A stretch of 64,000 bases of DNA from Methanosphaera sp. BMS (GTDB taxonomy: Archaea > Methanobacteriota > Methanobacteria > Methanobacteriales > Methanobacteriaceae): assembly GCF_003268005.1 (NCBI RefSeq), contig NZ_CP014213.1:372001-436000 (forward strand). Direction: 5' to 3'. The notes under the pieces are model-generated. The model worked only from the letters and a program-made list of their open reading frames with translations. It was not told the DNA's origin and searched no databases. The translations under genes were made by a program, and so were the position numbers. Below are positions 5,697-61,769 of this stretch, piece after piece; the first letter of the stretch is position 1, and each line of letters starts with the position of its first letter.

Positions 5697-6809
5697 TCAA
5701 TATTGTATTTGATTAATTATTTTTAATCCTTCATGATGTATATTTTTAGCAGCATTAATGTCCCTATCATGTCTATTACCACAATGGGGGCATGTCCATG
5801 TTCGGTTGTTTAGTGTTAGGTCTTCTTTGTGGTATTTACAGTTGTTGCATGTTTTGCTGGATGGGTACCATTGGTCTATGTGTATTAGTTTTCGTCCGTG
5901 TTCGTATGCTTTTTGTTCTAGTATTCTGATGAACATGTGCCAGGATTTTTCTTGTATACTTCGTGATAGTCTGCTGTTTTTTAGCATGCCTTTAATGTTT
6001 AGTGTTTCCATAGAGATTACGTGATATTTTTCTGTTAATCGTTGTGCTATCTTATAGAAATGATAGTCTAGTATGTTATGTCTTTTTTCATATGCTAAGG
6101 CTATCTTCTTTTTGATTTTATTGTAGTTTTTGCTGCCAATTTCTTTTTTGGATAGTTTTCTTTGTAATCTTTGTATTTTCTTGTCTAATTGTATGATCTT
6201 GTTTTGTTGTGGGAAATGTATTATTTCGCCCGTGTTTATTGTGACAAAACGTGATATTCCCAAATCTATACCACAACTGCGATTATTAATCTTAAAAACA
6301 TGTCTTGTGACATCTTTACATAAAATAGATACAAAATATTTACCGGATGCTTTTTGTTTAACAGTGACAGATTGTATTTTGCCGGATATCTTTTGATGTG
6401 TACGAAATCGTATCCAACCTACCTTGGGAAGACGAATACGTTTACCTTCAATTCTGATGTTGTTATTGATATTATTGGTTTTATAAGATTGTACTGGATT
6501 ATATTTACTTTTATAGCGTGGATACTTGTTAAGGTGTTTAAAAAATCTGTCAAAAGCATTTTCTAAATTTTTCAACGATTCAATCAAAGCTTGTGAATCA
6601 ACTCGTTTTAACCACGTCTTAGACTTCTTCAACTCAGTCAACATAGTCGAACAATCATAAAAAGACAAATACTCTCCATTATCTGAGTATACTGTCTTTT
6701 TAGCATCCAGAAAAGTGTTAAAAACAAAACGGCAACAACCAAACTGATTAATAAAAAAACTCTCCTGAACCTCATCAGGATAAATACGAACAACAAAACT
6801 CTTATACAT
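5697..6809 (-). CDS. tnpB: RNA-guided endonuclease TnpB (IS200/IS605 OrfB family)
   Basis: This 370-residue protein is full length for the family. It has the N-terminal OrfB helix-turn-helix-like region (YKSFVVRIYPDEVQ), then the RuvC-like catalytic residues Asp182 (GIDLGIS), Glu268 (SMETLNIKGM) and Asp350 (HDRDINAAKN). A four-cysteine zinc ribbon sits between the last two (Cys321, Cys324, Cys340, Cys343). TnpB proteins are RNA-guided DNA nucleases that help IS elements persist. All catalytic residues are intact, so the enzyme may be active. There is no companion tnpA Y1 transposase. The gene lies inside an element with DDE-type ends, an unusual setting, and a candidate guide RNA follows its 3' end. 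Confidence 0.93.
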   Translation of the reverse strand: MYKSFVVRIYPDEVQESFFINQFGCCRFVFNTFLDAKKTVYSDNGEYLSFYDCSTMLTELKKSKTWLKRVDSQALIESLKNLENAFDRFFKHLNKYPRYKSKYNPVQSYKTNNINNNIRIEGKRIRLPKVGWIRFRTHQKISGKIQSVTVKQKASGKYFVSILCKDVTRHVFKINNRSCGIDLGISRFVTINTGEIIHFPQQNKIIQLDKKIQRLQRKLSKKEIGSKNYNKIKKKIALAYEKRHNILDYHFYKIAQRLTEKYHVISMETLNIKGMLKNSRLSRSIQEKSWHMFIRILEQKAYEHGRKLIHIDQWYPSSKTCNNCKYHKEDLTLNNRTWTCPHCGNRHDRDINAAKNIHHEGLKIINQIQY

Positions 6810-14800: not shown

Positions 14801-17800
14801 TAACATAACAGGCTCCAACCTCACAGACAACATCGCAACAGGACAAACATATGATGGACGTGGAGGTGTAATATTCAACACTGGTAATCTTAACATAACA
14901 GACTCCAATCTCACAGACAACACTGCAACAGGACAAAATGGATATGGAGGTGCAATATACAACGATAATGGTTATTCTCTTAGCATAACAGGCTCCAAGT
15001 TAACAAACAACAAGGTAACAGGACAAACATATGATGGACGTGGAGGTGTAATATACAACAATGGTGGTACTTTTAGCATAACAGGTTCCAACATCACAGA
15101 CAACACTGCAACAGGACAAAATAGAGATGGACGTGGAGGTGTAATATTCAACACTAGAGGTACTATTAACATAACCAACACCAACCTCACACACAACACT
15201 GCAACAGGACAAAATGGAATTGGGGGTGCAATATACAACCATGGTACTCTTACCATAACAGGCTCTAACCTCAACAACAACACCGCAGCTGGACAAAATA
15301 CTGGAATTGGAGGAGTAATATTCAACGATGGTGGTACTCTTAATATAACAAACTCCAACTTCACACACAACAACGCAACAGGACAAGAATATGCAATTGG
15401 AGGTGTAATCTACAACACTGCTATGGGTACTCTTTCCATAACCAACACCAATCTCAACAACAACACAGCAACAGGACAAAATGGACTTGGAGGTGCAATA
15501 TACAACCACAATGGTGGTATTCTTAACATAACCAACACAAACCTCACACACAACAACGCAACATATGGGGGAGCAATAGTTAACAATGGTACCAGTAGTA
15601 ATTTAACAATTACTGATTCCAAACTAGAAAACAATAATGCAAACAAAGATGGAGGAGCAATCTACAATAAGCAGGGTAATGCTTTGATTGAAGGTAACAC
15701 TTTCATAACTAATACGGCAGGCACATCAGGATCTGCAATAAAGGATGATAGTGGAAGTGCTACGATTCATGATAACATTAATGCAGATACATCCACCTAC
15801 AGCTCAACAATATATACAGATGGAAGTGATGTTAGTATGATAAGCAATGTATTCTATGAACTTAATACCAACATTAATATATCATCCAATAATAGTAATC
15901 CTAGTGTGTTTGAAGTGGTTAACTTGACTTTCTTACTCAAAGATCAACTAGGAAACCCACTTGCAAATCAGATTATTAACATAACAATCAATGATATAAG
16001 ATATAATATCACTACAAATGATGAAGGATACAATACTCTGGAGTACACCATTCAAGCTAATGAAACGATAATTAATGCAATATATCCTGGAAATGACAAA
16101 TACTTCTCTAACACTGCATCGCTAGTTATGTATGCTCAAAAACTGGGCACACAATTATTAGTAGATGATGTGAATGCCAAGGTAGGTGAGGAATTTACAA
16201 TAAACGGAACGCTCAACACTAAAAACAATACTCCAATAAAAGATGCAACAATAAAGATAACAGTCAATGATAAAACAAACACCACAACCACAAATGAAAT
16301 CGGACAATTCAACATGACCTTCACACTAGACAAAATGGGAAAATATCCAATAACAGTAACATACCTTGGAGACAAGATATACAATCAATCCATCAACAAC
16401 ACAGCAAAAGTCACCGCAACAAAAACAGACACAAAACTAACACTAAACGTATCCAACACGACAGCAGTAAACAACACAAAAATAAACATAACAATAAAAT
16501 TAACAGACAACAATAACAATCCAATAGAAAACCAAGACATAAACATCACAATAAACGATGAAATAATCACAGTAAAAACAAACAATAATGGAACAAACAC
16601 CACAGAATACACCACTAGCAAAATAGGATCACAAACAATCACCGCTACATACCATGGAAACAACATGTACAACAATAACACAACAACAACACAAATAAAA
16701 GTGATAAAAATAGATACCAAACTAACACTAAAAGTATCCAACACGACACCGGTAAACAACACACCAATAACCATAACAGCCATACTAACCGATATAAACA
16801 ACAACAAACTAGCAAACCGGAACATCACATTTACAATAGATGATAGAACATACACCACACCAACAAACAATGAAGCAATAGCAACACTAAACTACACGCC
16901 AACAACCCCTGGAAAACAAGCAATAACAGCAACATACAATGGTGACAGCCAATACAACAACAACACTGCAGCCACCAGCATAACAGTCAAAAAGATTAAC
17001 ACTAGAATAGATTTAAAAGTATCCAACACGACACCAGTAAACAACACACCAATAACCATAACTGTTACACTAAAAGATACGGATGGTAACAAACTAGCAG
17101 GCCAGAACATTACAATAATAGTTGCCGGTAAGACATTTAACATTAAAACAAATGCTAATGGAGTAGCCATACAAAGCTACACGCCAACCAGGGTAGAAAC
17201 CCAGACAATAACAGCTAAATACAATGGTGACAGTCAATACAATAACAGCAGTACAACTGCAAGTGTAACTGTCAAGAAGATTACCACGAAGCTAACACTT
17301 AAAGTATCCAACAGCACACCGGTAAATAATACATCCATAACGATTACTGCTACATTAACAGATGAGAATAATAATAATAAAGTGGCAAATCAAAACATTA
17401 CAATAACTGTTGGTGGAAAGACATTCAAAGTAAAAACTAACAGTAATGGAATAGCAACACAAAGTTATACTCCTACAAAGGTAGAAACCCAAACAATCAC
17501 TGCTACATATAAAGGAGACAGTCAATATGTAAACAGTACTGCTACAGCAAACATAACCGTCAAGAAAATCAACTCAAAATTGACAGTAAAAGCATCCAAT
17601 ACAACGCTGACACTAAACACGTCAATAAATATCACAGCAATACTAACAGACGCTAACGGCAACAAATTATCAGGACAGAATGTTACAATAAATGTTGCCG
17701 GTAAAACATATACGGTAAAAACAGATACTAGTGGTGTGGCAACAAAAGCATACACGCCAACAACCGTTGGAAAACAAACAATAACAGCCACCTACAAGGG

Positions 17801-20007: not shown

Positions 20008-23000
20008 ATGGAAAAAACCAAAATAATCCTGCTACTAGCCATCCTACTGGTATTGCTGGTAGGAGCTGTAAGTGCAAGCGATGTATCAAGTGATACAAGT
20101 GATATGCTTGAAAGTATTGGTACGGATGCACCTGCAGCAGTGGAAGTAGCGGTACAAGAAAAAAGTACACCCAATATGGATGTACAGGAAAAAGTAGTAG
20201 AACAAAAAGAGAATAGTTTAAACGGAGTGAAAAATTCAAAAAGAGATAATAATGATTATTATAGCGAACAATCTATCGAAAAAAGCATATATGATACTCC
20301 CAATATAAAAAGGGAGGCAAATACCGGAACATTCACACAATTAATCGATTTGATAAATCAAACCCAGGAGGGCAGCATTATCGAATTGGATATGGATTAT
20401 GAATATGACGGTGCTTCAATCGACGGCGTATCTATCACTAAATCAATAACCATCGACGGACACGGATACACATTAAACGGTAAAGATTCAGGTGCAATCA
20501 TGGACATAACCGCCGGTACGATAGTATTGAAAAATATAATATTCACAAACGCTTCCCTCAAAAGGAATATAAGTGCTGATCTTGGTGCTGCAATTTATAA
20601 TGATGCTGATTTAACAGTGATAAACTGCACATTCACCAATAATAATGCCACCAACATGGGCGGTGCCATTTATTCCAAGGGTAACCTTGTCATACTTGAT
20701 TCAACATTCATAAATAATCACGCCAAGTATGGTGGTGCTATAGAGAATAATGTAGGAAACCTCACCATAAATAATTCAACATTCATTGAAAACTCAGGAA
20801 TATTTATCGGAGCTATTGATATTACCAAGGGAAACTGTACTATAACAAATTCCACGTTTGAAAAAAATACAGCCATGATGGCCGGAGCAGTATATGATGA
20901 TGATGGTATCCTAACGATTTCTGACAGCATATTCACCAATAACAGTGCCAGCATTGCTGGAGCAGTACGTGGTGGTACTTGTATTAACTGTACGTTTACC
21001 GAAAATTCGGCAGTGTTTGTCGGAGGAGCATTATCCGAAAGCGATGCAATTAATTCCACTTTCATCAGGAATCATGCGGAAACTGGTGGAGCAATGAGTG
21101 GTGGAAATATAATTAACTGTGAATTCGTAGATAACGAAGCAGAAGAAGGAGCTGATACATATAACACAGATTCTACTGGAACTTTCGAAGAATTATCTGA
21201 GTTAATCGACAATACTCCTGAGGGTGATGTACTTGAATTGGACATGAATTATGGATATTATGGCGGTTCAGTTGACGGTATCCAGATTAGTAAATCCATA
21301 ACTATTGATGGAAAAGGTCATACCATCAATGGAAAAAAGTTGTCACGAATATTTACTATCGTTAACGGAAATCTCACATTAAAAAATGTTACAATAGCAA
21401 ATGCAAATGAAGGAAAGGCCTCAGTAATATATTCAAATGCAGAAACTATAATAAATATCGTCAATTCCACATTAATAAACAATAAAGGGGATTATCTAAT
21501 TTACATACCTGATGGTTTCTTTAACATAGCAGATTGTGAATTCTATAATAATGCTCCACAGTGGGAAATTATATATTGTGAGGGAGAGTATAAGAATATT
21601 GCACTGAATATTACAAATTCAACATTTAATAATCCACAATTGTACTTCACATTGGACATTAGTTCAAGAGATTTAAACGTTATAAATTGTACGTTTGAAA
21701 ATGCAGAATTTGTCTTATCTGAAATTCCATCACTGAATATCGTCGATTCCACATTTAATTGTGGTGATGAAATGGGTATTTATTCACTTATGTATACTAA
21801 CGGATCTATTATCAATAATACATTTACATGTCATTCAGTAGATTTCGATACATCAAATTTAAACGTTTCATATAATATATTCATTCAATCTGAAGTATCA
21901 TCTTCCAAGTCAAACGTTAACTTTTCAAACATTGAAATCAATGATTTTACTGGAAAATTTAATGGAGCATTAAGTATTGAAAAGTCAAATATAAGCATAA
22001 CGGATTCCAGTTTTGCTAATGATTCTGCTGAAAGGTATGGTGGTGCAATATACTTCAACCAAGGTAATTTAAACATTTCCGATACAGTATTTGATAACAA
22101 TAGTGCCGGATATGGTGGAGCATTAATGATAATGAATTATGACTCCATAAACATAGAAAACAACACCTTTAAAAAAAATCATGCGATAATTGGAGGTGCA
22201 GTATATTCATTTTATGAATTCAATCAAAACAATACCTTCATCCGTAATTCAGCAAAAGATTGTGATGATGTGTATCAGTTTACTACCAAGGATTCACTCG
22301 ATTCATTGGTATTCAGAAGCAGAAATTACACTCCATTACAAACTAACATTACTGAGATTACAGAACTTCCATCATACTACAATCTAAATGATGATGGCTA
22401 TGTAACACCTGTTAAAGATCAGGGATTCACTGGCAGTTGTGTGACTTTTGCAGCAATAGCTGCTCTTGAATCTGCAATTTTAAAAGCAAATAATACCGCT
22501 ATGGATTTATCCGAAAACAACATGAAAAATTTGATTCACCGATACTCAATTTATGGTCAAAAATTTAATTCACCTAATCTATCAACTGCAACTGTTGCTT
22601 TAATAGATTATTTAACTAGTTGGATTGGACCTGTTTTAGAAAGTGAAGATGAATTTGATGAAAACAGTATATTCTCAGTAAAATATGATACTGTATTACC
22701 AGTTCAAAATATGGCATTCATAGGAGAAAATGATAACCATAATATTTCCTTAATGAAAAAATACATAACAGAATACGGTGGCATTATAATAGAATTATAT
22801 ATGAACGCTAGTATAGATAATGACTATAAACAATACATCAATACTGCATACCCTACCGATCATAATGTCTGTATCGTCGGCTGGGATGATGATATGGAGA
22901 TTCCAAATGCTCCAAGTAAAGGTGCATGGATTGTGAAAAACAGTTATGGTACTGATTGGGGTTATGATGGATACTTCTATCTTTCATATTATGATACACA

Positions 23001-24174
23001 ATATAATGTAGAAGTGGGTTCTTCATATGTATATAATAATCCAAACTATAATGCTATTGCAATAATCTTCAATGACACGGAAAAATATGATAAAAACTAT
23101 CAATATGAGCTAGGATTATCTGCATTCTTTAATACTGAAGATGAGTACTCCTGGTACAAAAACGTGTTCTACTCAACCGAGGAGGAAACGCTTGCGGGAA
23201 TATCCACATTCTTTGAAAAACAGACTGACTGGCAGTTATACATATACCTAAACGATGAATTAACACTAACACAGACTGGTACAAACAATGCCGGCTACTA
23301 CACTATCAAACTCGACGAATACATACCACTACAGAAAGATGACAAATTTGAAGTAGTCTTCAAAATACTAACACCAGATACGAGAATACCAATATCACTT
23401 GAGAATGATTTCATATACGGATTGTATCGTGAAAACCTATCATATGTCAGTAATGATGGAGAAAACTGGCAAGACTTGACAAATATAACATGGAAATCAT
23501 TATATTTGACATTCAACTCACAAATAGCATGTATCAAGGCATTCACAATACTGCCAACAAACACACTAAAAGTAGATACAACCGAATTTACAATAGGTCA
23601 GCCAGCAACAATACAGGCAAGCATATACTACGGCAGTCAAATAAACACGACCATAAACAAGGGAAAAATCACATTCAAGGTAAACGGTAAAACACTTAAG
23701 GACGCTGACGGTAAGGTAATCTACGCTAAGGTAGTAAACGGTACGGCTATTATCGAAGATTATGTTGTACCAAGTGATTGGGCAAAAGAAAACACGACCA
23801 TACAGGCGGTATATTCAGGTTCAAGTGATGTTGCAAAGATGACTAGCGATAAAGAAACAGTAACAATCAACACCGAAGAAACGACAATCACCACATATGA
23901 CGTCACAGCTTCTATAGGTGACGAGGTTAAACTCACTGCGACAATCAACTCACCAAATACGATAAACAATGGAAAAATAGTCTTTAAAATAAACGGTAAG
24001 ACTGTTAAAGACGCTAACGGCAAAGTAATCTATGCCAAAGTCGTCAACAATCAGGTAGTAGTAAATTACACAGTGCCTGCGGATATGAAATCTAAAAGTT
24101 ATAATCTTACAGCTGTTTTCATATCATCGGAGTATGAACGTATTGAAGATACGAAGACCTTGACCGTGATATAA
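20008..24174 (+). CDS. Surface papain-like (C1A) protease with beta-helix, lectin-like and Ig-like domains (1388 aa)
   Basis: The signal peptide (IILLLAILLVLLVGAVSA) is followed by two beta-helix blocks (residues about 110-390 and 400-770). A C1A peptidase domain follows with the oxyanion Gln805 (VKDQGFTGSC), nucleophile Cys811, His952 (DHNVCIVGWD) and Asn978 (WIVKNSYGTDWGYDG). The residue after Cys is Val where papains usually have Trp. Residues about 1025-1180 form the lectin-like domain often paired with this peptidase in archaea (YQYELGLSAFF to DDKFEVVFKIL). Two Ig-like domains end the protein (KVNGKTLKDADGKVIYAKVV twice, slightly varied). It probably acts outside the cell; substrate unknown. 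GTGATGTGAAC upstream may serve for ribosome binding. Confidence 0.92.
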   Translation: MEKTKIILLLAILLVLLVGAVSASDVSSDTSDMLESIGTDAPAAVEVAVQEKSTPNMDVQEKVVEQKENSLNGVKNSKRDNNDYYSEQSIEKSIYDTPNIKREANTGTFTQLIDLINQTQEGSIIELDMDYEYDGASIDGVSITKSITIDGHGYTLNGKDSGAIMDITAGTIVLKNIIFTNASLKRNISADLGAAIYNDADLTVINCTFTNNNATNMGGAIYSKGNLVILDSTFINNHAKYGGAIENNVGNLTINNSTFIENSGIFIGAIDITKGNCTITNSTFEKNTAMMAGAVYDDDGILTISDSIFTNNSASIAGAVRGGTCINCTFTENSAVFVGGALSESDAINSTFIRNHAETGGAMSGGNIINCEFVDNEAEEGADTYNTDSTGTFEELSELIDNTPEGDVLELDMNYGYYGGSVDGIQISKSITIDGKGHTINGKKLSRIFTIVNGNLTLKNVTIANANEGKASVIYSNAETIINIVNSTLINNKGDYLIYIPDGFFNIADCEFYNNAPQWEIIYCEGEYKNIALNITNSTFNNPQLYFTLDISSRDLNVINCTFENAEFVLSEIPSLNIVDSTFNCGDEMGIYSLMYTNGSIINNTFTCHSVDFDTSNLNVSYNIFIQSEVSSSKSNVNFSNIEINDFTGKFNGALSIEKSNISITDSSFANDSAERYGGAIYFNQGNLNISDTVFDNNSAGYGGALMIMNYDSINIENNTFKKNHAIIGGAVYSFYEFNQNNTFIRNSAKDCDDVYQFTTKDSLDSLVFRSRNYTPLQTNITEITELPSYYNLNDDGYVTPVKDQGFTGSCVTFAAIAALESAILKANNTAMDLSENNMKNLIHRYSIYGQKFNSPNLSTATVALIDYLTSWIGPVLESEDEFDENSIFSVKYDTVLPVQNMAFIGENDNHNISLMKKYITEYGGIIIELYMNASIDNDYKQYINTAYPTDHNVCIVGWDDDMEIPNAPSKGAWIVKNSYGTDWGYDGYFYLSYYDTQYNVEVGSSYVYNNPNYNAIAIIFNDTEKYDKNYQYELGLSAFFNTEDEYSWYKNVFYSTEEETLAGISTFFEKQTDWQLYIYLNDELTLTQTGTNNAGYYTIKLDEYIPLQKDDKFEVVFKILTPDTRIPISLENDFIYGLYRENLSYVSNDGENWQDLTNITWKSLYLTFNSQIACIKAFTILPTNTLKVDTTEFTIGQPATIQASIYYGSQINTTINKGKITFKVNGKTLKDADGKVIYAKVVNGTAIIEDYVVPSDWAKENTTIQAVYSGSSDVAKMTSDKETVTINTEETTITTYDVTASIGDEVKLTATINSPNTINNGKIVFKINGKTVKDANGKVIYAKVVNNQVVVNYTVPADMKSKSYNLTAVFISSEYERIEDTKTLTVI

Positions 24175-24234: not shown

Positions 24235-24726
24235 AGTTTCTTTCCCCATTAAATTGTTCTACAACCCTTTTTTTATTCAGATTAACCAGTATCAACTTTA
24301 TAAAAATATTCTCATAATCATGAATTCTTTTAATGTCACTATGATTGTTTTTCAATCTTTTTATAGCAAATGATGTCATAAGCAATCTAGTTTAGGTTTT
24401 TTATGTGATCAGTGTAGCTTTTTCTATTAGCTAAAAAGAAGAATATCACATAGGAATACTTAGAGTCTTATAATCCTCAAGACTCATATGCATTTTTTCA
24501 ATTATCCAACTAAATCCCTAAAAATAAACACACCCCAATAAACAAAAGAAAATTAAGAATATTTGATAAAAGACGGAATTTAATAAGAATTATTTTAAAA
24601 AAAATAGGAAATAATAATCAAATTACATTGAAATTAATGAATTTCATATATGTTAACATTTTTATAAAATGTCTAATAAATACATTCATATGCAGGATTT
24701 TGTATAAAATATTTAGGAGGCTTTTT
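24235..24726. other. Intergenic region before the second C1A ALP
   Basis: This is AT-rich DNA with no gene. The frame of the next gene stays open back to an ATG at 24628, but that extension is low-complexity and the good ribosome site AGGAGG at 24715-24720 argues for the start at 24727. No similarity to the shared upstream region of the neighbouring ALPs was seen. Confidence 0.45.
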
Positions 24727-27700
24727 ATGAAGAGAAAACTCGTTCCTGTATTAATATTTCTCGTGTTGATCTGTTCGCTTGTTTGTGTAGCTTCAGCAAC
24801 GGACATGAACAACATTGATGATGGGATTGATTATGAAATCGATTCCCAAGACAATAGTATTGCTAATGAGGTTAGCATTACTGATTTAAATGAAGTAAAA
24901 AATCTAAAATCAAATGCCAAGGACTTTTCCAGTGAACGTTCTATTGAAAAAAATACACAGGATAGGTCTAGTCTAAAAGAAGATGAAAATACTGGAACAT
25001 TCACACAATTATCCGATTTGATAAATCAAACCCAAGAGGGCAGCATTATCGAATTGGATATGGATTATGAATATGACGGTGCTTCAATCGACGGTGTCTA
25101 TATCAATAAATCAATAACAATTGACGGACACGGATACACATTAAACGGTAAGGATTCCGGTGCAATCATGGACATAAATGCCGGTACGATAGTATTGAAA
25201 AATATCATATTCACAAATGCTCGTATTGACAGAGACATTGATGGTGACGTCGGAGCTGCAATTTTTAATGATGCTGATTTAACAGTGATAAACTGTACCT
25301 TCACAAATAATTACGCCGGTAACTTGGGCGGTGCAATTTATTCCGGCGGTACATTAGTAGTACTTGATTCAACATTTACAAATAATTCAGCAAAGTATGC
25401 AGGTGCAATACGTAACTTTGGGGGTACTCTCAGCATAAGCAATTCAACATTCAGCGAAAACACAGCAGCAATTGGCGGAGCAGTAAATAATCAAGAAGGA
25501 GACTGTTACATAAGAAACTCAACATTCGAAAACAATACTTCTATGATAGGTGGAGCAGTATACAACGCTAACTGTATTAATTCCACATTTACCCAGAATT
25601 CAGCATCAATTGGTGGTGGAGCATTAGCTGATTGTGATGCAATTAACTGTACATTCATCAATAACAGTGCCCTTGTTGGTGGAGCTATGAGTCATGGAAG
25701 TGCAATTGACTGCATATTCATAAACAATACAGCAGAAGAAGGAACTGATAGCTACGATACTGATTTTCCAGGAACATTCGAGGCATTATCCGACTTAATC
25801 AACAATACCCAAGAGGGTGGTGTACTTGAATTGGATATGAATTATGGATATTATGGTGGTTCGGTTGACGGTATCATAATCAATAAAACAATAACCATAG
25901 ATGCAAAAGGACATAGCCTCGATGGAAGGAAACTATCCAGGATATTCACAATCCTTGACGGAAATCTTACATTGAATAATATTACATTAGCAAATGGAAT
26001 TGACGAGGAAGGATATGCCTCAGCAATATACTCACAAGCAGATAACATAATAACCATTGCCAATTCCACAATCAAAGACAATACAGGATACTATATAATC
26101 AACATTGATGGTGGATTTCTTAACATAATAGATAGTGAATTATATGATAATACTCCAGAGTATGTACTTGTAAATGTTCATGGTGACTACAAGAATATAA
26201 CGATGAATATTACAAATTCAAGATTTGATAATTCTTTAGAGTATAGGGATACATTGGATGTCACTTCAAGAGATTTAAACATAATAAATTGTACATTTGA
26301 AGATAAAAGCTTTACCCTTTTTGAGGTTTCATCATTAACTATCGCTAATTCCACATTCAATGGTGATAAGGGGGTTGCTTACATTATATATGCTAACGGA
26401 TCATTCATCAATAATACTGTTACAGATGGTAGGATAGTTTTTAATGAGGGAAACTTCAACGTCACGGATAATACATTCAACAATACCCGTATAGGCTGTA
26501 GCATTTCAACAGTTAACTTTTCAAACAATGAAGTTGTTGAACAAAAAGAAAGCAGTACCGGAGCATTAACTATTGATAATGCAAATATAAGCATAACAGA
26601 TTCCACTTTCGTTAATAATGCTGCTGAAATATATGGTGGGGCATTATACTTTAATCAAGGAAACCTAAACATATCCAACACAGTCTTTGATAATAACTCT
26701 GCCGGAACGGGTGGAGCACTACTGATAATGGATTATGAATCCATAAAAGTAGACAACAACACTTTTAAAAATAATCATGCAACTGTCGGAGGAGCAGTAT
26801 ATTCATTATATGAATTCAATCAAAACAACACATTCATCAATAATTCGGCAAAAACAGGAAATAATGTATATCAGTTCACTACCAAGGATTCAATTGATTC
26901 ACTAGTATTCAGAAGCAGAAATTACACGCCATTACAAATCAATTATACTGATGAGATAACTGATCTTCCATCATACTATAACCTAAACGATGAGGGTCTT
27001 TGTACCCCTGTTAAATATCAGGGAAGAAGTGGTGCATGCGTATCCTTTGGAACATTAGCTGCTCTTGAATCCTCCATATTAAAAGCCAATAATACCATAA
27101 TGGACTTATCTGAAAATAATATGAAAAATCTGGTTCACAACTACTCAATTTTCGGTAAATACTATAATAGGGTTAAACAAGGAGGAACTTATAATGATAT
27201 AATATACTATCTTACAAGCTGGTTAGGCCCTGTCCTGGAAAGTGAAGATGAATTTGATGATAACAGTATCTTCTCACCAAGATATGATACCATATTGCCA
27301 GTTCAAAATGTAGCATTCATAGGGGACGATGATATACTCCTGATATTTCATTAATCAAAACATCCATAATAAAATATGGTGGGCTTATGATAGCAGTGGA
27401 TTTAAACGCCAGTAGTGAAAATGATTATAAGCAATATAAAAAGTATACAGGTTCACCAGATCACTTTGTATGTATCATCGGATGGGATGATGAGATGGAG
27501 ATTCCAAATGCTCCGGATAAAGGTGCATGGATTGTGAAAAATAGTTATGGTGAAGAGTGGGGATATGACGGATACTTCTATCTTTCATATTATGATGAAA
27601 CATATGACAATGGAATAGACGTTGGAAGTGTGTTAGACTTACTTGATTTTAGACATTATGACGCCAGTGCAATAATATTCAATGACACGGACAAATATGA

Positions 27701-28787
27701 TAAAAACTATCAATACGAGCTGGGATTATCCACATTCTTTAACAACGAAACAAACTACTCATGGTATAAAAATACATTCTATTCAACCGAGGAGGAAACA
27801 CTTGCAGGAATATCCACCTACTTCGAAAAGCCGACCGACTGGCAGTTATACATATACCTAAACGATGAATTAACACTAACACAAAGCGGTACAAACAATG
27901 CCGGCTACTACACTATCAAACTCGACGAATACATACCACTACAAAAGGATGACAAATTTGAAGCAGTCTTCAAAATACTAACACCAGAAACCGCAATACC
28001 AGTATCCATAAAGGGCGACTTCATCTATGGAATCTACCATGAAAACCTATCCTATATCAGTACTGACGGAGAAAACTGGCAAGATCTGGCAAATATGACA
28101 TGGAAGACATCAATATTTAGAACGATAAACTCACAGGTAGCATGTATCAAGGCATTCACAATACTGCCAACAAACACACTAAAAGTAGATACAACCGAAT
28201 TTACGATAGGTCAGCCAGCAACAATACAGGCAAGCATATACTACGGCAGTCAAATAAACACGACCATAAACAAGGGAAAAATCACATTCAAGGTAAACGG
28301 TAAAACACTTAAGGACGCTGACGGTAAGGTAATCTACGCTAAGGTAGTAAACGGTACGGCTGTAATCGAAGATTATGTTGTACCAAGTGATTGGGCAAAA
28401 GAAAACACGACCATACAGGCGGTATACTCAGGTTCAAGTGATGTTGCAAAGATGACTAGCGATAAAGAAACAGTCACAATCAACGCCGAAGAAACGACAA
28501 TCACCACATATGACGTCACAGCTTCTATAGGTGACGAGGTTAAACTCACTGCGACAATCAACTCACCAAATACGATAAACACCGGAAAAATCGTGTTCAA
28601 AATCAATGGTAAAACAGTTAAAGACTCTAACGGCAAAGTAATCTATGCCAAAGTCGTCAACAATCAGGTAGTAGTAAATTACACAGTGCCTGCGGATATG
28701 AAAGCTAAAAGTTATAATCTTACAGCCGTTTTCATATCATCGGAGTATGAACGTATTGAAGATACGAAGACCTTAACAGTGATATAA
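24727..28787 (+). pseudogene. Frameshifted paralogue of the surface C1A protease (beta-helix/peptidase/lectin/Ig)
   Basis: Start ATG 24727 follows AGGAGG. The first frame (to 27354) encodes a signal peptide, two beta-helix blocks and the first half of the peptidase with Cys771 (QGRSGACVSFG). It then runs into LLIFH and a stop. The second frame carries DISLIKTSIIKYGG, the His (DHFVCIIGWDD) and Asn (KNSYGEEWGYDG) of the triad, the lectin-like domain and two Ig-like domains to 28787. Removing the extra AT in ATATA at 27332-27336 restores alignment with the intact neighbour. As sequenced, the Cys and His lie on separate polypeptides, so no active protease is made. The Asp before the active-site Gln is Tyr here. 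This may be a phase-variable or recently broken gene, or an assembly error. Confidence 0.87.
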
Positions 28788-37212: not shown

Positions 37213-37680
37213 TCAGATATTGAATAAAGATATTATTTGGATTTTTACAGGTGTGTTCTTTCTTATTTTCTTGTTGTATATAAAGGTTGCATGAGTTGAT
37301 TGATTAATCATGTGCCATTTTCCATATTCATCTGATATTTTCAAGCGTAGTTTATGTAATCGTGTAACTGTTTCATATCTATTTATAATCAAGTTTCTGT
37401 GTCCAAAAAAGATATTGAATCGTTACATCAACCAAAGAAATAATAGTCAAAATACAAAATGAAACATAATATTGGCAAAATAATTGTCAGGTTCTTTAGC
37501 ATGATTTCTTTCTAAATAATCTTGACGTAAGATAATATTGGATTTAGCTTCTTCAAATAACTAATGTACTTGAGCTGTATGTTATGAAAGTGGCACGTAC
37601 TGTTCTGAAGAGGAGAAGAAAGCTAACTGTCTAACTTATCCGATATAACTCATTATCACCACATTTTTTGTTGTATAGCC
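37213..37680 (-). pseudogene. Decayed protein-coding remnant, possibly transposase
   Basis: One minus-strand frame reads as ordinary protein but contains several stops. Recognisable stretches are SSSEQYVPLS, FEEAKSNIILRQDYLER, EPDNYFANIMFHF and FGHRNLIINRYETVTRLHKL. The last ends near 37216 with a normal stop. At least three or four internal stops, TAA, TAG and TGA, break it. The family was not identified with confidence; an insertion-sequence transposase C-terminus is the best guess, given similar debris at 50834-51325. Confidence 0.5.
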
Positions 37681-38458: not shown

Positions 38459-41400
38459 ATGTTTAAAAGAAAATACTTAATTGTTTTTCTTACATTGCTC
38501 TTTGCTTTTATGAGTGTAGCTGTGGCCGCTGATGCTAATGATTCAACAGTTGACACAACTGTTATATCAGATGATGTTCCAACGGCTATCTCAAACGTAC
38601 AGGAGCAGACAACTGTAAGTGAAAATAATATAATAACAAAAGAAACAAGGAATTTAAAACAGGATCCGACACCAATAATCGTTAATTCAGAAGCAGATTT
38701 TAATAATCTGTTTGATTCTGACGGTTATTTAACTGGTGTAACGGATGGTTCAACAATTAAAATTAATGCCGACATTTCAAAAAATGACAAATCATATATT
38801 ATTAACAAGGCCATTAATTTAACAAGTGATAACAATAACACAATAGATTTAAATACTTCTATGGGATATAATCTTCCCAACAGTCAGTTACATTATACGT
38901 CATTTAACTTTGTAGCAGGAGCTGCCGGCTCCAACATCACGAACATACATTTCCATAACACTGAAATATATGTAAACAATACAAACAGTATTGTATTTGA
39001 TGGTGTTAGTGTTACCGTTACAGATAATAGTGTAGGTACAGAAGTAGGAATAATGTCAATACGTGATGATTCAACCAATATCACAGTTAAAAACAGTTAT
39101 TTCAATACAAACAATAATGGTGGATACAGCACATTAGTGCTTGCCGGAACCAGTTATTCAACAATAGATAATAACACCATAATTGGAAGTGGAACTGTTG
39201 GTAATTTACTGTATTTAACCACATACAATGTAGCAAATATAGCAGAGGATGATATTGAATTAAATTCATATAACAATATAACAAATAACACTATAACCGG
39301 TCCAAGTACAGCATCCGGCATCTGCTATGGTATTGCATTAACAGGTCATGACAACCTCATAGCAAACAATATTGTTAACATGGCTGGTCAGGGTATAACA
39401 ACCCAATGGGCTTATACCGATCCTGCAACTCCGGAAATAGGTAACAATAGTGAACGATATAAAGGAAACAATTATACTAACAATACAATAAATGGTGGTG
39501 CGTTATTCAAGGCAACCAATAACAGTACTATTGAAAACAACACATTTACGGGTACCGTTACAAGTGGTGCTAACTCAACACTAACTAACAATACAATTAC
39601 TAAAAAAGTTACTGCTCAGACCGGTTCATCATTATACAATAACACTATATTTAATGGCGTGTTAATAAATGGTCAAAATGTTCGATTAATTGACAATAAT
39701 ATCAGCAAAACAGTCAATACGACATATGATAATATATACATAGAATATAATCACATTTGTGGTAAAATTAAAGTACCGACAACCACAACAAATGTTACCG
39801 TACAAAACAATATCTACTGTAAAGATACTATTTCCGGCAATCCAACCATATTTGTCAATAACACTCATTGTACTGGCAGTTGTACAGCAAATACATGTGG
39901 ATGTAGTCATGATACACCTAATTCCATGGGAAATCTAAAAGGTGCTGGTCAAATAATTGAAATTACTAGTGATAATATATATGAGTACTTTGAATTTGAT
40001 GATGAAGAATTTTATATGCCACGTTCAATACAAAATCGTAATGCGGGTAATACATTTATATTTGATCAATCAGCATTTGATGAAATGAAACAGGCTGATT
40101 ATGTGACGTTAAGCTGTCCTAATGCAACATTTACCGCTAAGGATAATCCTACCTTTAACACAATATTATTCATCACAGATACTCCAAATTACATTGGAAA
40201 TTTCACTGTTAAATATAATAAAAATAAAGATCATTACTATGCAGGAGTTATGTATTTAAGCGGTGGAATGACTAAAAAAGAGATGCCATGTGTTATAGAA
40301 AACATTACGGTAACGGTAGATTATGATTTCGACTTACCTGATGAAACCATTAGGATGATTGTAATTCAATGTGATAAAGACCCATCTCATATAGCTTATG
40401 ATGAGGATGGAAATCCATATCTATTGGAATATGTAATTAGAAACTCAAATATTAACATGAATATACCTTCTGATGATATAAACTGGGAAGGAAGTGCTAA
40501 ACCTATTATCATACCTATAGAATTAGTATCTACTGTACAGGGAAATACCGGTAATGATACAGGTAAAAACTGCATTATTGAAAATAACAATATTACACTA
40601 AATGAATCAGAATACTATGGTAACTATTCAACAATATGGTCCATATTCAACTGTAAAAACAATACAAAAATACTTAACAACAATATGTACATGAGTGGAG
40701 AAAAATATCTGTATGCAATAGAAAATGCCGCATCCAACACCACAATATCAGGTAACAACATTGTAGTCAACGGTACACACTACACTGCAGGTGTATATAT
40801 AACCGGATTAAATATGCAGAATAACACTGTAGAAAACAATAATATTACACTATACTCAGGTTACGGACATGCAGGAACCAATGGTAAAGAAGAAGACAGC
40901 GGATATGCAGTTGTAATTGAGGACAGAGGATATGGCGGAAAAACATATGATGAAAACAAGGGAAGTGCAGTATACAACAACAAAATACTAAACAACAACA
41001 TCACCACATACGGTAATAACCCATACAGTATAGAACACTTCGGTGGAAAAAACACTACAATAGCAGGAAACAACATAACAGCACATGGATACAACCCAAC
41101 AGGTATAGCACTCACAGGAGTAAATGTAACCATAGAAAACAACACCATAAAATCATATGCACTTACCAACATAACCGGTGGAACAGTAGACTACTTCCCT
41201 GCAGTAAGTACAGGAGTATTACTCCAATGGTCCAAAAACACAACTCTAAACAACAATGTTATAGAAGTGGAAAACGGAACAGGAGTCACCGCAAACAAAT
41301 ATACAGAACTTTACATAATAAACAACAACATTACAACGACAGATGACTATGCAGTTGCACTATATGGAGTGGTAGATGCATCAGTTACTGAGAATACCCT

Positions 41401-42106
41401 CATTGCAAGAAGCCTAAAGGGTGATGCTGCAGTAAACGATGATGATGGAACAGGCAATATCATCCAGGACAATCAGCCTGCAGAACCTGTCAAGGAATAC
41501 TCACTTCAGATAGACACTACAGAATTTACACAAGGTACAAATGCAACAATCACGGCAAGCATATACTACGGTGAGGATATAGCAACAGACATCAACAAAG
41601 GAAAAATATCATTCAAGGTAAACGGCAAAACATTAAAAGACGCTAACGGCAAGGTAATCTATGCCAAAGTGGTAAACGGTACAGCAATAATAGAAAACTA
41701 CCAAATACCGGATACATGGACCAATAAAACAGTAATACAGGCAATATACTCAGGATCAAATCAATTGGAAAAAATGACAAGTGAAAAAACAAACATAACA
41801 GTAACATCAAAAGAATTAACATTAACTACTAGTGACGTCACTGCAACAGCCGGTTCAACAGTTACACTCACGGCAACTCTAAGCGACAATACGATTAATA
41901 TTGGTAAAGTAGTCTTCAAAGTTAACGGTAAATCAATCAAAGATGCTAACGGTAAGGTAATATATGCTAAAGTAGCCAATGGTCAAGTAAGTGTAGAATA
42001 CACATTACCTGAAGATATGAAGGCTAAAGATTACAATATTACTGCAGTATTCCTATCACCAGATTATGAACGCATAGAAGATACTAAGACATTGACTGTC
42101 AATTAG
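38459..42106 (+). CDS. Adhesin-like protein with beta-helix and two Ig-like domains (1215 aa)
   Basis: The signal peptide (YLIVFLTLLFAFMSVAVAA) is followed by a parallel beta-helix of the NosD-like type. Its repeats are Asn-rich (NNNITTYGNNP, IENNTIKSY, ITNNTITGP) and lack the GGAIYN motif of its neighbours. A Cys-rich spot, CTGSCTANTCGCSH near residue 474-487, is unusual in this protein class and might bind metal or form disulfides. Residues about 1015-1215 are two Ig-like domains (FKVNGKTLKDANGKVIYAKV and FKVNGKSIKDANGKVIYAKV). These match the ends of the two C1A ALPs closely, so this end module is shared across different N-terminal parts. The start has a good AAGGAG site. The role at the surface is inferred. 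Confidence 0.9.
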   Translation: MFKRKYLIVFLTLLFAFMSVAVAADANDSTVDTTVISDDVPTAISNVQEQTTVSENNIITKETRNLKQDPTPIIVNSEADFNNLFDSDGYLTGVTDGSTIKINADISKNDKSYIINKAINLTSDNNNTIDLNTSMGYNLPNSQLHYTSFNFVAGAAGSNITNIHFHNTEIYVNNTNSIVFDGVSVTVTDNSVGTEVGIMSIRDDSTNITVKNSYFNTNNNGGYSTLVLAGTSYSTIDNNTIIGSGTVGNLLYLTTYNVANIAEDDIELNSYNNITNNTITGPSTASGICYGIALTGHDNLIANNIVNMAGQGITTQWAYTDPATPEIGNNSERYKGNNYTNNTINGGALFKATNNSTIENNTFTGTVTSGANSTLTNNTITKKVTAQTGSSLYNNTIFNGVLINGQNVRLIDNNISKTVNTTYDNIYIEYNHICGKIKVPTTTTNVTVQNNIYCKDTISGNPTIFVNNTHCTGSCTANTCGCSHDTPNSMGNLKGAGQIIEITSDNIYEYFEFDDEEFYMPRSIQNRNAGNTFIFDQSAFDEMKQADYVTLSCPNATFTAKDNPTFNTILFITDTPNYIGNFTVKYNKNKDHYYAGVMYLSGGMTKKEMPCVIENITVTVDYDFDLPDETIRMIVIQCDKDPSHIAYDEDGNPYLLEYVIRNSNINMNIPSDDINWEGSAKPIIIPIELVSTVQGNTGNDTGKNCIIENNNITLNESEYYGNYSTIWSIFNCKNNTKILNNNMYMSGEKYLYAIENAASNTTISGNNIVVNGTHYTAGVYITGLNMQNNTVENNNITLYSGYGHAGTNGKEEDSGYAVVIEDRGYGGKTYDENKGSAVYNNKILNNNITTYGNNPYSIEHFGGKNTTIAGNNITAHGYNPTGIALTGVNVTIENNTIKSYALTNITGGTVDYFPAVSTGVLLQWSKNTTLNNNVIEVENGTGVTANKYTELYIINNNITTTDDYAVALYGVVDASVTENTLIARSLKGDAAVNDDDGTGNIIQDNQPAEPVKEYSLQIDTTEFTQGTNATITASIYYGEDIATDINKGKISFKVNGKTLKDANGKVIYAKVVNGTAIIENYQIPDTWTNKTVIQAIYSGSNQLEKMTSEKTNITVTSKELTLTTSDVTATAGSTVTLTATLSDNTINIGKVVFKVNGKSIKDANGKVIYAKVANGQVSVEYTLPEDMKAKDYNITAVFLSPDYERIEDTKTLTVN

Positions 42107-56819: not shown

Positions 56820-59800
56820 CTATTTTTTTACAAGTACGCTTGTTATTCTATCTGATTTGTATGCTCCGGTTTCACCGGCTATGAGTTCTATTGTATGTGC
56901 TCCTGTTGTGATGTTTGTTGGAATTGTAACATTGATTATACCATTGGTTGCCGTTGTAGTGTTTATCATCTTGCCGTCTAGTTTTATACCAACAGTTACC
57001 TTTCCTGATACGTTGTTTTTGTTTTTATCTACGATATTGGCGGTTATTCTTGTGGTTGTTGTCTTTGTTGTTATTGGGGTGTATCTTATGAATGCTTCTC
57101 CTTTTGTCACGTTAAGTTTTCCTGTTGCCTCGATACGGTTGTATCCGGTGTATGCGTATACAGCGGTGAGGTTGTATTCTCTTGCACTTAAGGTGATATT
57201 GTAGTCAAGTACTGCTACTCCGTTTACTACGTTTGCCTGTAGGGCTTTACCGTTGGAGTCTTTGAGTGTTACGCCGTTTGCTTTTATTATGACTGTTCCA
57301 CCGGTTATGCTTTGTCCTTTTTCATCTGTTGCTGTTATGACAAATTGTATTTTGTCACCGTTTTCATGTGTTGGCAGTTTTGCTATTTGGATTTTCACAT
57401 TTCCTGGTGTAATGTTATTTTTGGTATTGTTTGCCCGGCTTGAGGCGTATTTGTCATTTCCTGCGTATGTTGCCTCTACAGTGGTGTTGTCCTTGTACCA
57501 GCTTCTTGGTATTGTATAGTTTAGTGTTGCAGTTCCGTTGTTTACGAGTGCATATAGCGTGTTTCCGGGTTCATCCTTTAGGGTAATTCCGTTTACTTTG
57601 AAGGTTACTCTTCCTGTGGTTACTGCTTTTTTGTTGTTGTCTTTGATTGTTGCTTTTAGTTGTGTGGTTGATCCTACTTTTCCGTTTATTTGGGATACTG
57701 TTGTTGTGGTTGGTGTTGGGGTGGTTGTTTTGTTTAGTTCTTTGATGATTTCCTGTAATTCTTTTATTGTGTTGTTTTGTGTTTTTATTGTGTCTTGTAG
57801 TTGTTTGTTGGTGTTGTTTAGGTTTTGTATTGTTTTGTTTTGGTTCTGGTTTTCTTTTGTGAGTGTTTGTATGGTGTTGTTTTGTTGTTTTATTGTGTTG
57901 TTTAGTGTTTTTATGGTGTCTTGTAGTTGTTTGTTGGTGTTGTTTAGGTTTTGTATAGTTTTGTTTTGGTTCTGGTTTTCTTTTGTGAGTGTTTGTATGG
58001 TGTTGTTCTGTTGTTTTATTGTGTTGTTTAGTGTTTTTATGGTGTCTTGTAGTTGTTTGTTGGTGTTGTTTAGGTTTTGTATTGTTTTGTTTTGGTTTTG
58101 ATTTTCTTTTGTGAGTGTTTGTATGGTGTTATTTTGTTGTTTTATGGTATTATTTAGTGTTTTTATTGTATTGTTTAGTTGTGTGATGTTTGCCTGTAGT
58201 TGTTTGTTTATATTGTTTAGTGTTTGTATCGTGTTATTTTGTTGTTTTATGGTATCGTTTAGTGTTTTTATTGTATTGTTTAGTTGTGTGATGTTTGCTT
58301 GTAGTTGTGTGTTTTGGTTGCTTAGGTTTTGGTTTTGTGTCGTTAATGTTTGTATGGTGTTGTTTTGTTCATTTATGGTGTTGTTTTGTTCATTTATGGT
58401 GTTGTTTTGTTCATTTATGGTGTTGTTTTGTTCATTTATGGTGTTGTTCTGTTCATTTACAGTATTGTTAAGTTGGGTTATTTTCTCTTCAAGTTCTCTT
58501 ATTTTGGCGTCCTTATCTATTTCTACTTTGAAGTTTATTATTGTGGTGGATGATTTGTACTCGTTTGTTTCTGTAAATTCTACTTGGATGGTGTAGTCTC
58601 CTGGTGTTAGTGTGGTTTCGGTGATTATTCCACTTGTCGTGGTTTTTGTTATGTCGCCGGTTATGATTATATTGGCATCTGTTATTGGGGTGTTGTCAAT
58701 TGTGTTGGTTACTGTTATGTTTAATTGTGTGTTTGATTGTGTGTTGTTTATGATGTTGTATGTTATTTTTGTATCCTTCTTGTTTACTGTTATTGATTTT
58801 GAAGCTGTGCTTCCGGTGTAGTTGTCGTTGTCATTGTATGTTGCGGTGACTTGTACTGTGTTGTTGTTTTTCGGGGTTATATTTACATGGTAGTTTCCGT
58901 ATTCATCTGTTGTCGTGGCAATACTTTCCTCGACCATATCTATTATGACTTCCTGGTTTGCCAGGAGTTTACCGGTTTTATCAAGTAGTTGTCCGTATAT
59001 TGTAACTGTTTTGTTTACCATTGCATTTGGAGTATTTTTAATGGTTATAATTGTCTCTTGTTTAGAGATGACAATAGTGGTTGAGTTTGTACTTTGAGTG
59101 TATTGACCGTTTCCTTCATAGGTTACTGTTATTGTATGTGTTCCCATCCTGTTTGGCGTATATTCTGTTGTTATTAATCCGTTATTGTCTGTTCGTAGAG
59201 TTTCTGTTTTTCCATTAATGTTTACTGTCACATCCCTGTTTGATAGTTTATTATCATTTTCATCAGTTAATACTGCATTTATGGTTATTGGTGTGTTTAT
59301 TTTTGGTGTAGTATCATTTAGTGTTATGTCAAGTTGGGTATTAAGCGTTTTGACGTTTATGGTGGTTGAGTTTGTACTTTGATTGTATTGGCTGTTTCCA
59401 TCGTATGTGGCTGTGATTGTATGTGTTCCTGTCCATCTTGGCGTGTAGTCTTTAATTATTCTACCTTCATTGTCTGTGCGTAGATTTTCAATGATTCCAT
59501 TGATGTTTAAGGTTAAATTCTTATTGTCGAGTTTATTGTCCTTGTCGTCGGTCAGTTGTATGGTAATTAGTACCATTGTATTGTTTAATGGTGTTGTATT
59601 TGTTAGTGTTAAATTTATTTTTGTAATATACTGAACAGTGATATCTGTTGATGTGCTGCAGTTGTAGTATGTTTCATCTCCATCATATGTAACTGTAACA
59701 GTATGTGTTCCTCCATGATTTGGTATGTATTCAATGTTTAGCTCTCCATCTTCGTTTGTCATCATATTTTGTTTATCCCCATCTATGGTGATGTTTAATG

Positions 59801-61769
59801 GTTGATTGGATAATCTGAGTCCGTATTGATCTTTTAATATGACGTTTATATTAATCTTATCATTTACAACAGGTTTGGTGTTATTTGTGGTTATTGTGAT
59901 GTTTGTATTGAGTTTGTCATGGAACTTGTTATGTTCTATTATAACTGTTTTATCTGAGTTTGTGTATATTGTTCCATGATATTGAGTAGTTGTATCTCCT
60001 TCATTGTCTTCTATTACTGCTGTTCCATCATTTATTATGGCATTTCCAGTCATTTTTGCAATATTGGCTATGAAATAATTAAATTCTATAACTGCACCAC
60101 CTGCATTGTTGTATATTGCACCTCCAACTCCATATCCATCTTGTCCTTGTCCTGTTGCGGTGTTTTGTGTGAGGTTGGAGTTTGTTATGGTAAGATTACC
60201 TGAGTTGTGTATTGCACCTCCAACTCCATTTGTTTGTCCTGTTGCGTTGTTTTGTGTGAGGTTGGATTGTGTTATGTTAAGAGTACCAAAGGTGTTGTAT
60301 ATTGCACCTCCATATCCATCATATTGTTGTCCTGTTGCCTTGTTTTGTGTGAGGTTGGATTGTGTTATGTTAAGAGTACCATATACGTTGTATATTGCAC
60401 CTCCCCATCCATCTTGTTGTCCTGTTGCAGTGTTTTGTGTGAGGTTGGAGTCTGTTATGTTAAGAGTACCATCCCAGTTGTATATTGCACCTCCACGTCC
60501 CACTCCATTTTGTCCTTGTCCTGTTGCCTTGTTTTGTGTGAGGTTGGATTGTGTTATGTTAAGATTAGCACCATATGCGTTGTATATTGCACCTCCATAT
60601 CCATATCCATTTGTTTGTCCTGTTGCGGTGTTTTGTGTGAGGTTGGAATTTAATATTGTTAAGTTACTGTTAGTACCGTTGTTGTATATTGCACCTCCAA
60701 CTCCATATCCATTTTGTCCTTGTCCTGTTGCTGTGTTTTGTGTGAGGTTGGAGTCTGTTATGGTAAGATTACCCCTATTGCTGTTGTATATTGCACCTCC
60801 ACGTCCCACTCCATTTTGTCCTTGTCCTGTTGCTGTGTTTTGTGTGAGGTTGGATTGTGTTATGTTAAGAGTACCATGGTTGTATATTGCACCTCCCCAT
60901 CCCCATCCATCTTGTCCTTGTCCTGTTGCCGTATTTTGTGTGAGGTTGGAGTCTGTTATGGTAAGAGTACCACTATTGCTGTTGTATATTGCACCTCCAT
61001 ATCCAGTATATGTTTGTCCTGTTGCTGTGTTGTTGTTGAGGTTGGAGTCTGTTATGGTAAGAGTACCACTATTGCTGTTGTATATTGCACCTCCATATCC
61101 ATCTTGTTGTCCTGTTGCTGTGTTGTTGTTGAGGTTGGAGTCTGTTATGTTAATAGTACCACCGTTGTTGTATATTGCACCTCCACATCCAACACCTTGT
61201 CCTGTTGCTGTGTTGTTGTTGAGGTTGGATTGTGTTATGTTAAGAGTACCACCATTGTTGTATATTGCACCTCCTTGTCCATTTTGTGCATGACAGTTGG
61301 TGATTGTGATGTTGTTAAGGTTTACCATTTGATTACTCTGTATATTTAAAAATCGGTATTTGTTATCTCCGTTTATTGTGTAACTGTTTCCGTTTATTGT
61401 AAGAGTCTTTATATTAGGATTTAGTGTTGGACTGGCTGTGAGTGTTATGTTGGAGTTAATGTTTATAGTTACCTCTTCATCGTCACTACCCATTGCATAG
61501 CTTAGATTAGCATAATTGCTTACGTTGTGGGTTTGGCTTGCGGTTTTTAAGTTTTCTTCTTTTTTGTTTATTTTTTCTACTCTATTGGTATCTTCTATGG
61601 ATACACTTTGTCTTTCTTGTACTGCTACTTCATTAACTACCTGTGCATCTGTACTTATACTGTCAGATATATCAGAGTTGATGCCATCAGTATTTGTGTC
61701 TGCTGCATTTGCTACTCCCACCAGTAGTAGTAATGTTACCAGTAGCAGGATTATTAATTTTCCTTTCAT
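56820..61769 (-). CDS. Adhesin-like protein with beta-helix head, Ig-like domains and long coiled-coil stalk (1649 aa)
   Basis: The signal peptide (LIILLLVTLLLLVGVANA) leads into a beta-helix built of about fifteen highly regular repeats (GGAIYN..LNITQSNLTQNTATGQ, about 130-600). Some five Ig-like domains follow (about 620-1075). Residues about 1090-1343 are a long Asn/Gln-rich coiled coil, first ELEEKITQLNNTV, then five NNT(V/I)NEQ heptads and three copies of a 42-residue repeat. Three Ig-like domains finish the protein (FKVNGITLKDEPG, IKANGVTLKDSNG and a final one ending SVLVKK). No membrane anchor is visible. The architecture suggests a head held away from the wall by a rod. Sequons recur along the stalk. 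Confidence 0.92.
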   Translation of the reverse strand: MKGKLIILLLVTLLLLVGVANAADTNTDGINSDISDSISTDAQVVNEVAVQERQSVSIEDTNRVEKINKKEENLKTASQTHNVSNYANLSYAMGSDDEEVTININSNITLTASPTLNPNIKTLTINGNSYTINGDNKYRFLNIQSNQMVNLNNITITNCHAQNGQGGAIYNNGGTLNITQSNLNNNTATGQGVGCGGAIYNNGGTINITDSNLNNNTATGQQDGYGGAIYNSNSGTLTITDSNLNNNTATGQTYTGYGGAIYNSNSGTLTITDSNLTQNTATGQGQDGWGWGGAIYNHGTLNITQSNLTQNTATGQGQNGVGRGGAIYNSNRGNLTITDSNLTQNTATGQGQNGYGVGGAIYNNGTNSNLTILNSNLTQNTATGQTNGYGYGGAIYNAYGANLNITQSNLTQNKATGQGQNGVGRGGAIYNWDGTLNITDSNLTQNTATGQQDGWGGAIYNVYGTLNITQSNLTQNKATGQQYDGYGGAIYNTFGTLNITQSNLTQNNATGQTNGVGGAIHNSGNLTITNSNLTQNTATGQGQDGYGVGGAIYNNAGGAVIEFNYFIANIAKMTGNAIINDGTAVIEDNEGDTTTQYHGTIYTNSDKTVIIEHNKFHDKLNTNITITTNNTKPVVNDKININVILKDQYGLRLSNQPLNITIDGDKQNMMTNEDGELNIEYIPNHGGTHTVTVTYDGDETYYNCSTSTDITVQYITKINLTLTNTTPLNNTMVLITIQLTDDKDNKLDNKNLTLNINGIIENLRTDNEGRIIKDYTPRWTGTHTITATYDGNSQYNQSTNSTTINVKTLNTQLDITLNDTTPKINTPITINAVLTDENDNKLSNRDVTVNINGKTETLRTDNNGLITTEYTPNRMGTHTITVTYEGNGQYTQSTNSTTIVISKQETIITIKNTPNAMVNKTVTIYGQLLDKTGKLLANQEVIIDMVEESIATTTDEYGNYHVNITPKNNNTVQVTATYNDNDNYTGSTASKSITVNKKDTKITYNIINNTQSNTQLNITVTNTIDNTPITDANIIITGDITKTTTSGIITETTLTPGDYTIQVEFTETNEYKSSTTIINFKVEIDKDAKIRELEEKITQLNNTVNEQNNTINEQNNTINEQNNTINEQNNTINEQNNTIQTLTTQNQNLSNQNTQLQANITQLNNTIKTLNDTIKQQNNTIQTLNNINKQLQANITQLNNTIKTLNNTIKQQNNTIQTLTKENQNQNKTIQNLNNTNKQLQDTIKTLNNTIKQQNNTIQTLTKENQNQNKTIQNLNNTNKQLQDTIKTLNNTIKQQNNTIQTLTKENQNQNKTIQNLNNTNKQLQDTIKTQNNTIKELQEIIKELNKTTTPTPTTTTVSQINGKVGSTTQLKATIKDNNKKAVTTGRVTFKVNGITLKDEPGNTLYALVNNGTATLNYTIPRSWYKDNTTVEATYAGNDKYASSRANNTKNNITPGNVKIQIAKLPTHENGDKIQFVITATDEKGQSITGGTVIIKANGVTLKDSNGKALQANVVNGVAVLDYNITLSAREYNLTAVYAYTGYNRIEATGKLNVTKGEAFIRYTPITTKTTTTRITANIVDKNKNNVSGKVTVGIKLDGKMINTTTATNGIINVTIPTNITTGAHTIELIAGETGAYKSDRITSVLVKK
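57775..58152 (-). repeat. Three tandem 126-bp repeats encoding six heptads each
   Basis: The block with TGGTTCTGGTTTTC on the plus strand recurs at about 57841, 57967 and (one variant) 58093, a period of 126 bases. Each unit encodes 42 residues, exactly six heptads (KTLNNTIKQQ to NKQLQDTI), so copy-number changes keep both the reading frame and the coiled-coil register. Confidence 0.88.
58355..58468 (-). repeat. 21-bp tandem repeat, five copies, one heptad each
   Basis: Five near-identical 21-base units encode NNT(V/I)NEQ five times in a row. Four of them are almost base-identical. Confidence 0.9.

Follow-up and report, generated by a model that had tools for sequence, protein, structure and literature searches.

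In rumen and gut methanogens, adhesin-like proteins (ALPs) make up a large class of surface proteins that is believed to attach the cells to their partners. Among other fibrous adhesins, the trimeric autotransporter adhesins are obligate trimers with an outer-membrane beta-barrel anchor. The ALPs of Methanosphaera stadtmanae and Methanobrevibacter smithii combine an N-terminal hydrophobic segment, a right-handed beta-helix and repeated Ig-like domains (PMC11532034). The word "coiled" is absent from that survey, and searches on coiled coils in ALPs found nothing relevant in the literature covered. The tetrabrachion of Staphylothermus marinus has a 70-nm coiled-coil stalk with beta-rich arms, and the stalk is a right-handed tetramer built on undecads (PMC5744192).

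We identified an ALP with a long coiled-coil stalk in a Methanosphaera species whose genome consists of one contig of 2.87 Mb. The gene (56820-61769, Table 1) lies within the window, the whole 64,000-nt stretch of DNA analysed here, which contains several further ALP genes. As in the M. stadtmanae and M. smithii ALPs, a hydrophobic N-terminal segment is followed by a putative beta-helix type region and repeated Ig-like domains; unlike the ALPs of PMC11532034, it has a coiled-coil stalk inserted between two sets of Ig-like domains. Big_3_5 matched seven stretches of the protein (E = 7e-28) and Big_1 matched with E = 7e-10, while the Chlam_PMP repeat match in the beta-helix region was just over the cut-off; the 90-bp repeats there are typical of such regions. 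With tetrabrachion the protein shares its nature as an archaeal surface protein whose long coiled-coil stalk carries beta-rich parts, but it is not of that type, as it has heptads throughout and a periodicity of 3.5 rather than the undecads of a right-handed tetramer. With the trimeric autotransporter adhesins of Proteobacteria it shares a fibrous stalk built of repeats and a presumably adhesive head held at a variable distance, although no beta-barrel anchor domain was matched in 56820-61769. By its anatomy the protein is an ALP, and it would work like other fibrous adhesin stalks.

Table 1. Features of the stalk-bearing ALP gene, in order from the N-terminus (positions in the window).
Feature	Coordinates	Strand	Evidence
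ALP gene, 1649 aa	56820..61769	-	ATG open frame; Big_3_5, Big_1 and Chlam_PMP matches
Hydrophobic N-terminus MKGKLIILLLVTLLLLVGVANA, likely signal peptide or anchor as read from the translation	61704..61769	-	
Beta-helix type repeat region, ~aa 131-610 (boundaries approximate)	59940..61379	-	~90-bp repeats; Chlam_PMP match
N-terminal set of Ig-like domains, ~aa 611-1083	58521..59939	-	Big_3_5, Filamin and Big_1 matches
Coiled-coil stalk (aa 1084-1349) of 38 heptads without interruption; 24 of its 27 sequons at phase e	57723..58520	-	Heptad analysis; AlphaFold2 single helix, aa 1087-1346
Five 21-bp units encoding NEQNNTI	58353..58457	-	
126-bp unit in three full copies, each coding for the same 42-mer with four sequons	57786..58163	-	
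Pro/Thr linker PTPTTTT, terminates the helix	57699..57722	-	Translation; pLDDT <50 from segment residue 262 on
C-terminal Ig-like domains that recur in many proteins of the genome and may be a surface anchor	56823..57698	-	

The related stalks described below were parsed with a Viterbi heptad model that uses our own scores. In the present stalk, core phase a is Ile in 27 of 38 heptads and Asn in 9, and core phase d is Leu in 24 and Gln in 13; Asn occupies phase e in 25 heptads and Thr occupies phase g in 27. Hydrophobic periodicity peaks at 3.5, with a power of 8.2 compared with a maximum of 1.8 in 10,000 shuffles. AlphaFold2, given the stalk segment alone, predicted one 260-residue helix, mostly with pLDDT >90, that ends at the Pro/Thr linker. 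The scoring is home-made, but the heptads are clear and AlphaFold2 independently gives a helix; the coiled-coil stalk proposed in an earlier note on this DNA is supported. That note placed the feature at 57775-58468; the stalk is located there but is slightly longer, reaching 58520 and 57723. It also assigned Ile and Leu to both core phases, which describes about two thirds of the layers but not the five 21-bp units, all of which have Gln at d. Layers of Ile and Leu with interspersed Asn and Gln at a and d favour a parallel dimer as the oligomeric state. If fully helical, the 266 residues would extend ~39.5 nm (0.1485 nm rise per residue). The stalk also matches Pfam and NCBIfam profiles (SlyX, SMC, Rad50, Myosin tail), as coiled coils generally do, and we did not read these matches as homology. 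Two plus-strand ORFs antisense to the stalk (57538-58101 and 58111-58596) were dismissed, as their Cys/Phe/Val-rich text mirrors the repeat.

Both repeat arrays of the stalk have units that are multiples of 21 bp, as the earlier note had described. The three full 126-bp copies (58038-58163, 57912-58037 and 57786-57911, minus strand) encode KTLNNTI KQQNNTI QTLTKEN QNQNKTI QNLNNTN KQLQDTI, and in each of them the sequon Asn falls at residues 4, 11, 25 and 32, a single heptad phase, in agreement with the same note. The sequon also occupies the same phase in every one of the five NEQNNTI copies. Across the whole stalk, the sequon Asn is at e in 24 of 27 cases, at g in two and at c in one. Pairwise, the 126-bp copies differ by 3-8 synonymous and 0 nonsynonymous changes, a pattern that points to purifying selection on the encoded repeat. 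In the ~90-bp repeats of the beta-helix part of the same gene (60104-61274, minus strand), sequons likewise recur at set positions (LNITQSNLTQNTATGQ); register with a repeat is therefore not unique to the stalk sequons.

The geometry of the N-x-S/T sequon, in which Asn and Ser/Thr are two residues apart, limits where it can sit in a coiled coil. With Asn at a or d the Asn enters the core, and with Asn at b or f the Thr does, at d or a respectively. For Asn at c, e or g alone, both Asn and Ser/Thr stay outside the core, and e is the one phase that also keeps the middle residue outside. The sequons of ALP stalks are distributed accordingly by phase (217 at e, 117 at c, 48 at g and 34 at all others), with 92% at c/e/g compared with 63% in other coils. 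As the core tolerates sequons only at c/e/g and tandem duplication copies them, the register is explained without selection for a glycan face, and appears to be mainly a packing rule, a reading that fits the counts. The rule is a simple, testable statement of which sequon positions a coiled coil allows. Sequons of two stalks from different genera (L052 and L055) contradict it: 7 and 9 of their sequon Asn residues were parsed at core phase d (for example LTSNQTA), where there may be a local register change or a polar layer. The prediction of the earlier note that one face of the rod is decorated was not supported. In a symmetric parallel oligomer each helix would carry its own stripe, which would follow the supercoil, so that in a parallel dimer two e stripes would lie on opposite sides of the rod; moreover, many relatives use both c and e, which are on opposite sides of the helix.

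We consider that the stalk is probably a heptad-modular, N-glycosylated coiled-coil spacer in a secreted ALP, and weighed this against two other readings. Asn and Thr are poor helix formers, Asn makes up 26% of the stalk, Gln is high and occupies d in 13 of 38 heptads, all of which would suit a disordered or aggregation-prone segment rather than a stable coiled coil. We find this very improbable, as 52 of the 58 hydrophobic residues are at a/d, AlphaFold2 returned a single confident helix, and homologous stalks show clear charged heptads (for example IENLTNQLDQAKEEIETLNNT). A more serious alternative, though still an unlikely one, is a coiled-coil stalk that carries no glycans, in which the sequons arise incidentally from an Asn/Thr-rich surface in a genome of low G+C content and from tandem copying of LNNTI, a motif that fits N-x-T by chance. 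The window has a G+C content of 33%, Asn is abundant as noted, and Thr at g is also common after Gln or Ala at e. Duplication places any motif in register, which makes the register weak evidence. The full shuffle gives 12.5 sequons (maximum 23 in 5,000) compared with the 27 observed, but phase composition alone gives 21 of the 27. When only unique heptads of this stalk were counted and column composition was kept, 10 sequons were found compared with 6.1 expected (P = 0.001).

The by-product reading accounts less well for the related stalks, which we gathered from whole genomes and sorted according to what their non-coil parts are homologous to (an initial by-eye grouping into ALP and other, made after the counts had been seen, gave the same result). 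The ALP set comprised 33 coils from three genera and the other set 119 coils, mostly Rad50/SMC from the same genus. Sequons per 100 residues averaged 6.9 in the ALP coils (range 3.6-10.3) and 0.79 in the other, mostly intracellular, coils. With residues shuffled within each heptad phase of each stalk, 27 of 28 ALP stalks exceeded the expectation from phase composition, 24 of them at P<0.05, compared with 0 of 76 other coils. Because the ALP stalks share ancestry and are built of repeats, the tests partly depend on one another and the P values serve as guides only. The excess persisted among dissimilar ALP heptads (<5/7 identical), in which Asn was followed by Ser/Thr 25 times from e (14.6 expected), 25 times from c (9.5) and 15 times from g (5.2), and no such coupling excess was found in the equally dissimilar heptads of other coils. 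Where c is Asn, e is Thr in 52% of unique heptads; for each of the other residues tabulated at c, the share is at most 15%. Window ALPs likewise have more sequons than their own shuffles (165 vs 111 for 8826-19676, for example), whereas no excess was seen in the window phosphoesterase, TetR and most other non-secreted window proteins; the exception is 3454-4185, with 5 sequons compared with 2.1 shuffled.

One protein of the genome matches the STT3/AglB family (882 aa, 219 bits); it has WWDFG where the family usually has WWDYG. At the gene level, the 27 stalk sequons thus occur together with a genomic AglB oligosaccharyltransferase, as in an N-glycosylated archaeal surface protein. The Thr residues might instead serve O-mannosylation by a PMT-family enzyme, but PF02366 had no match in the genome. 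The excess of sequons over phase composition in ALP stalks, its absence from other coils and the presence of AglB together suggest, indirectly, that evolution has kept the sequons of ALP stalks on purpose. Such statistics would provide a genome-only signal of ALP N-glycosylation, which is little studied in this group.

Queried with the stalk and the C-terminal Ig part, the source genome gave 84 matches, most of them to the C-terminal part. One paralogue (L027, G000:C1:693954-695321) can be aligned over the Ig domains, the stalk and everything up to the C-terminus (71% over 778 positions). Its stalk counts 34 heptads compared with 38, and begins with the same heptad (IDKDAKI) and ends with nearly the same text (KELQEII KQLNKTS). 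A 105-bp repeat and a 42-bp KQQENTI NTLNNTI array take the place of the 126- and 21-bp arrays. With both ends aligned, the paralogues thus uphold the prediction that stalk length changes without loss of register. In several heptads of L027, Glu or Asp replaces the phase-e Asn, so individual sequon sites look dispensable. When contigs were scanned with the C-terminal domains, all matches were to loci of Methanosphaera sp. rholeuAM74, and a second strain of the source species was not among them.

Many Methanosphaera genomes encode ALP coils with sequons, as do two other genera of the family (L054 in g5; L051, L055 and L059 in g10), where the heptad text is different (for example VNELNRT VVAQDVT IGELNST). 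Across species the ALP coils range from ~51 to 477 residues and have 0.10 register breaks per 100 residues, compared with 0.82 in other coils. The single weak match in G016 is a low-sequon coil of intracellular type.

In the glycosylated-spacer reading, a long rigid coiled coil would hold the beta-helix and Ig domains away from the C-terminal Ig domains, which would anchor a protein that is presumably adhesive. In most heptads of each chain, AglB would glycosylate the N-x-T sequon, although occupancy could be partial because phase e flanks the helix interface. The resulting sugar stripe on each helix may keep the rod soluble and protease-resistant, with sequons held at e (elsewhere also at c and g), where neither Asn nor Thr enters the core. 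Gain or loss of 21-bp multiples would lengthen or shorten the stalk with heptad register kept and sequon number in step. More tentatively, these gut methanogen stalks might form a class in which the heptad itself is the glycosylation unit, with length and sugar load tuned together by tandem-repeat turnover and selection holding sequons at the phases that the coil tolerates. If so, each 21-bp step would lengthen the rod by ~1 nm and give every chain nearly one more N-glycan.

Other features were noted in the window. Two adjacent plus-strand ORFs (24628-27354 and 27387-28787) match pieces of a papain-type protease (profile positions 2-55 and 156-204), followed by Lectin_like and Big_3_5. As the protease profile is split over both, they look like one ALP gene broken in two. 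The plus-strand ORFs 20008-24174 and 27387-28787 have identical last 25 residues (SYNLTAVFISSEYERIEDTKTLTVI), and 38459-42106 finishes with a nearly identical stretch, which suggests gene conversion or a common module. Sigma-70 promoter scans were set aside as uninformative for an archaeon. Between two ALP genes, 37570-37639 (plus strand) matches the Rfam group II intron family (RF00029, 47.4 bits), and an IS605-type OrfB/TnpB gene with a Cas12f1-like TNB domain is encoded near ALP genes at 5697-6809 (minus strand).
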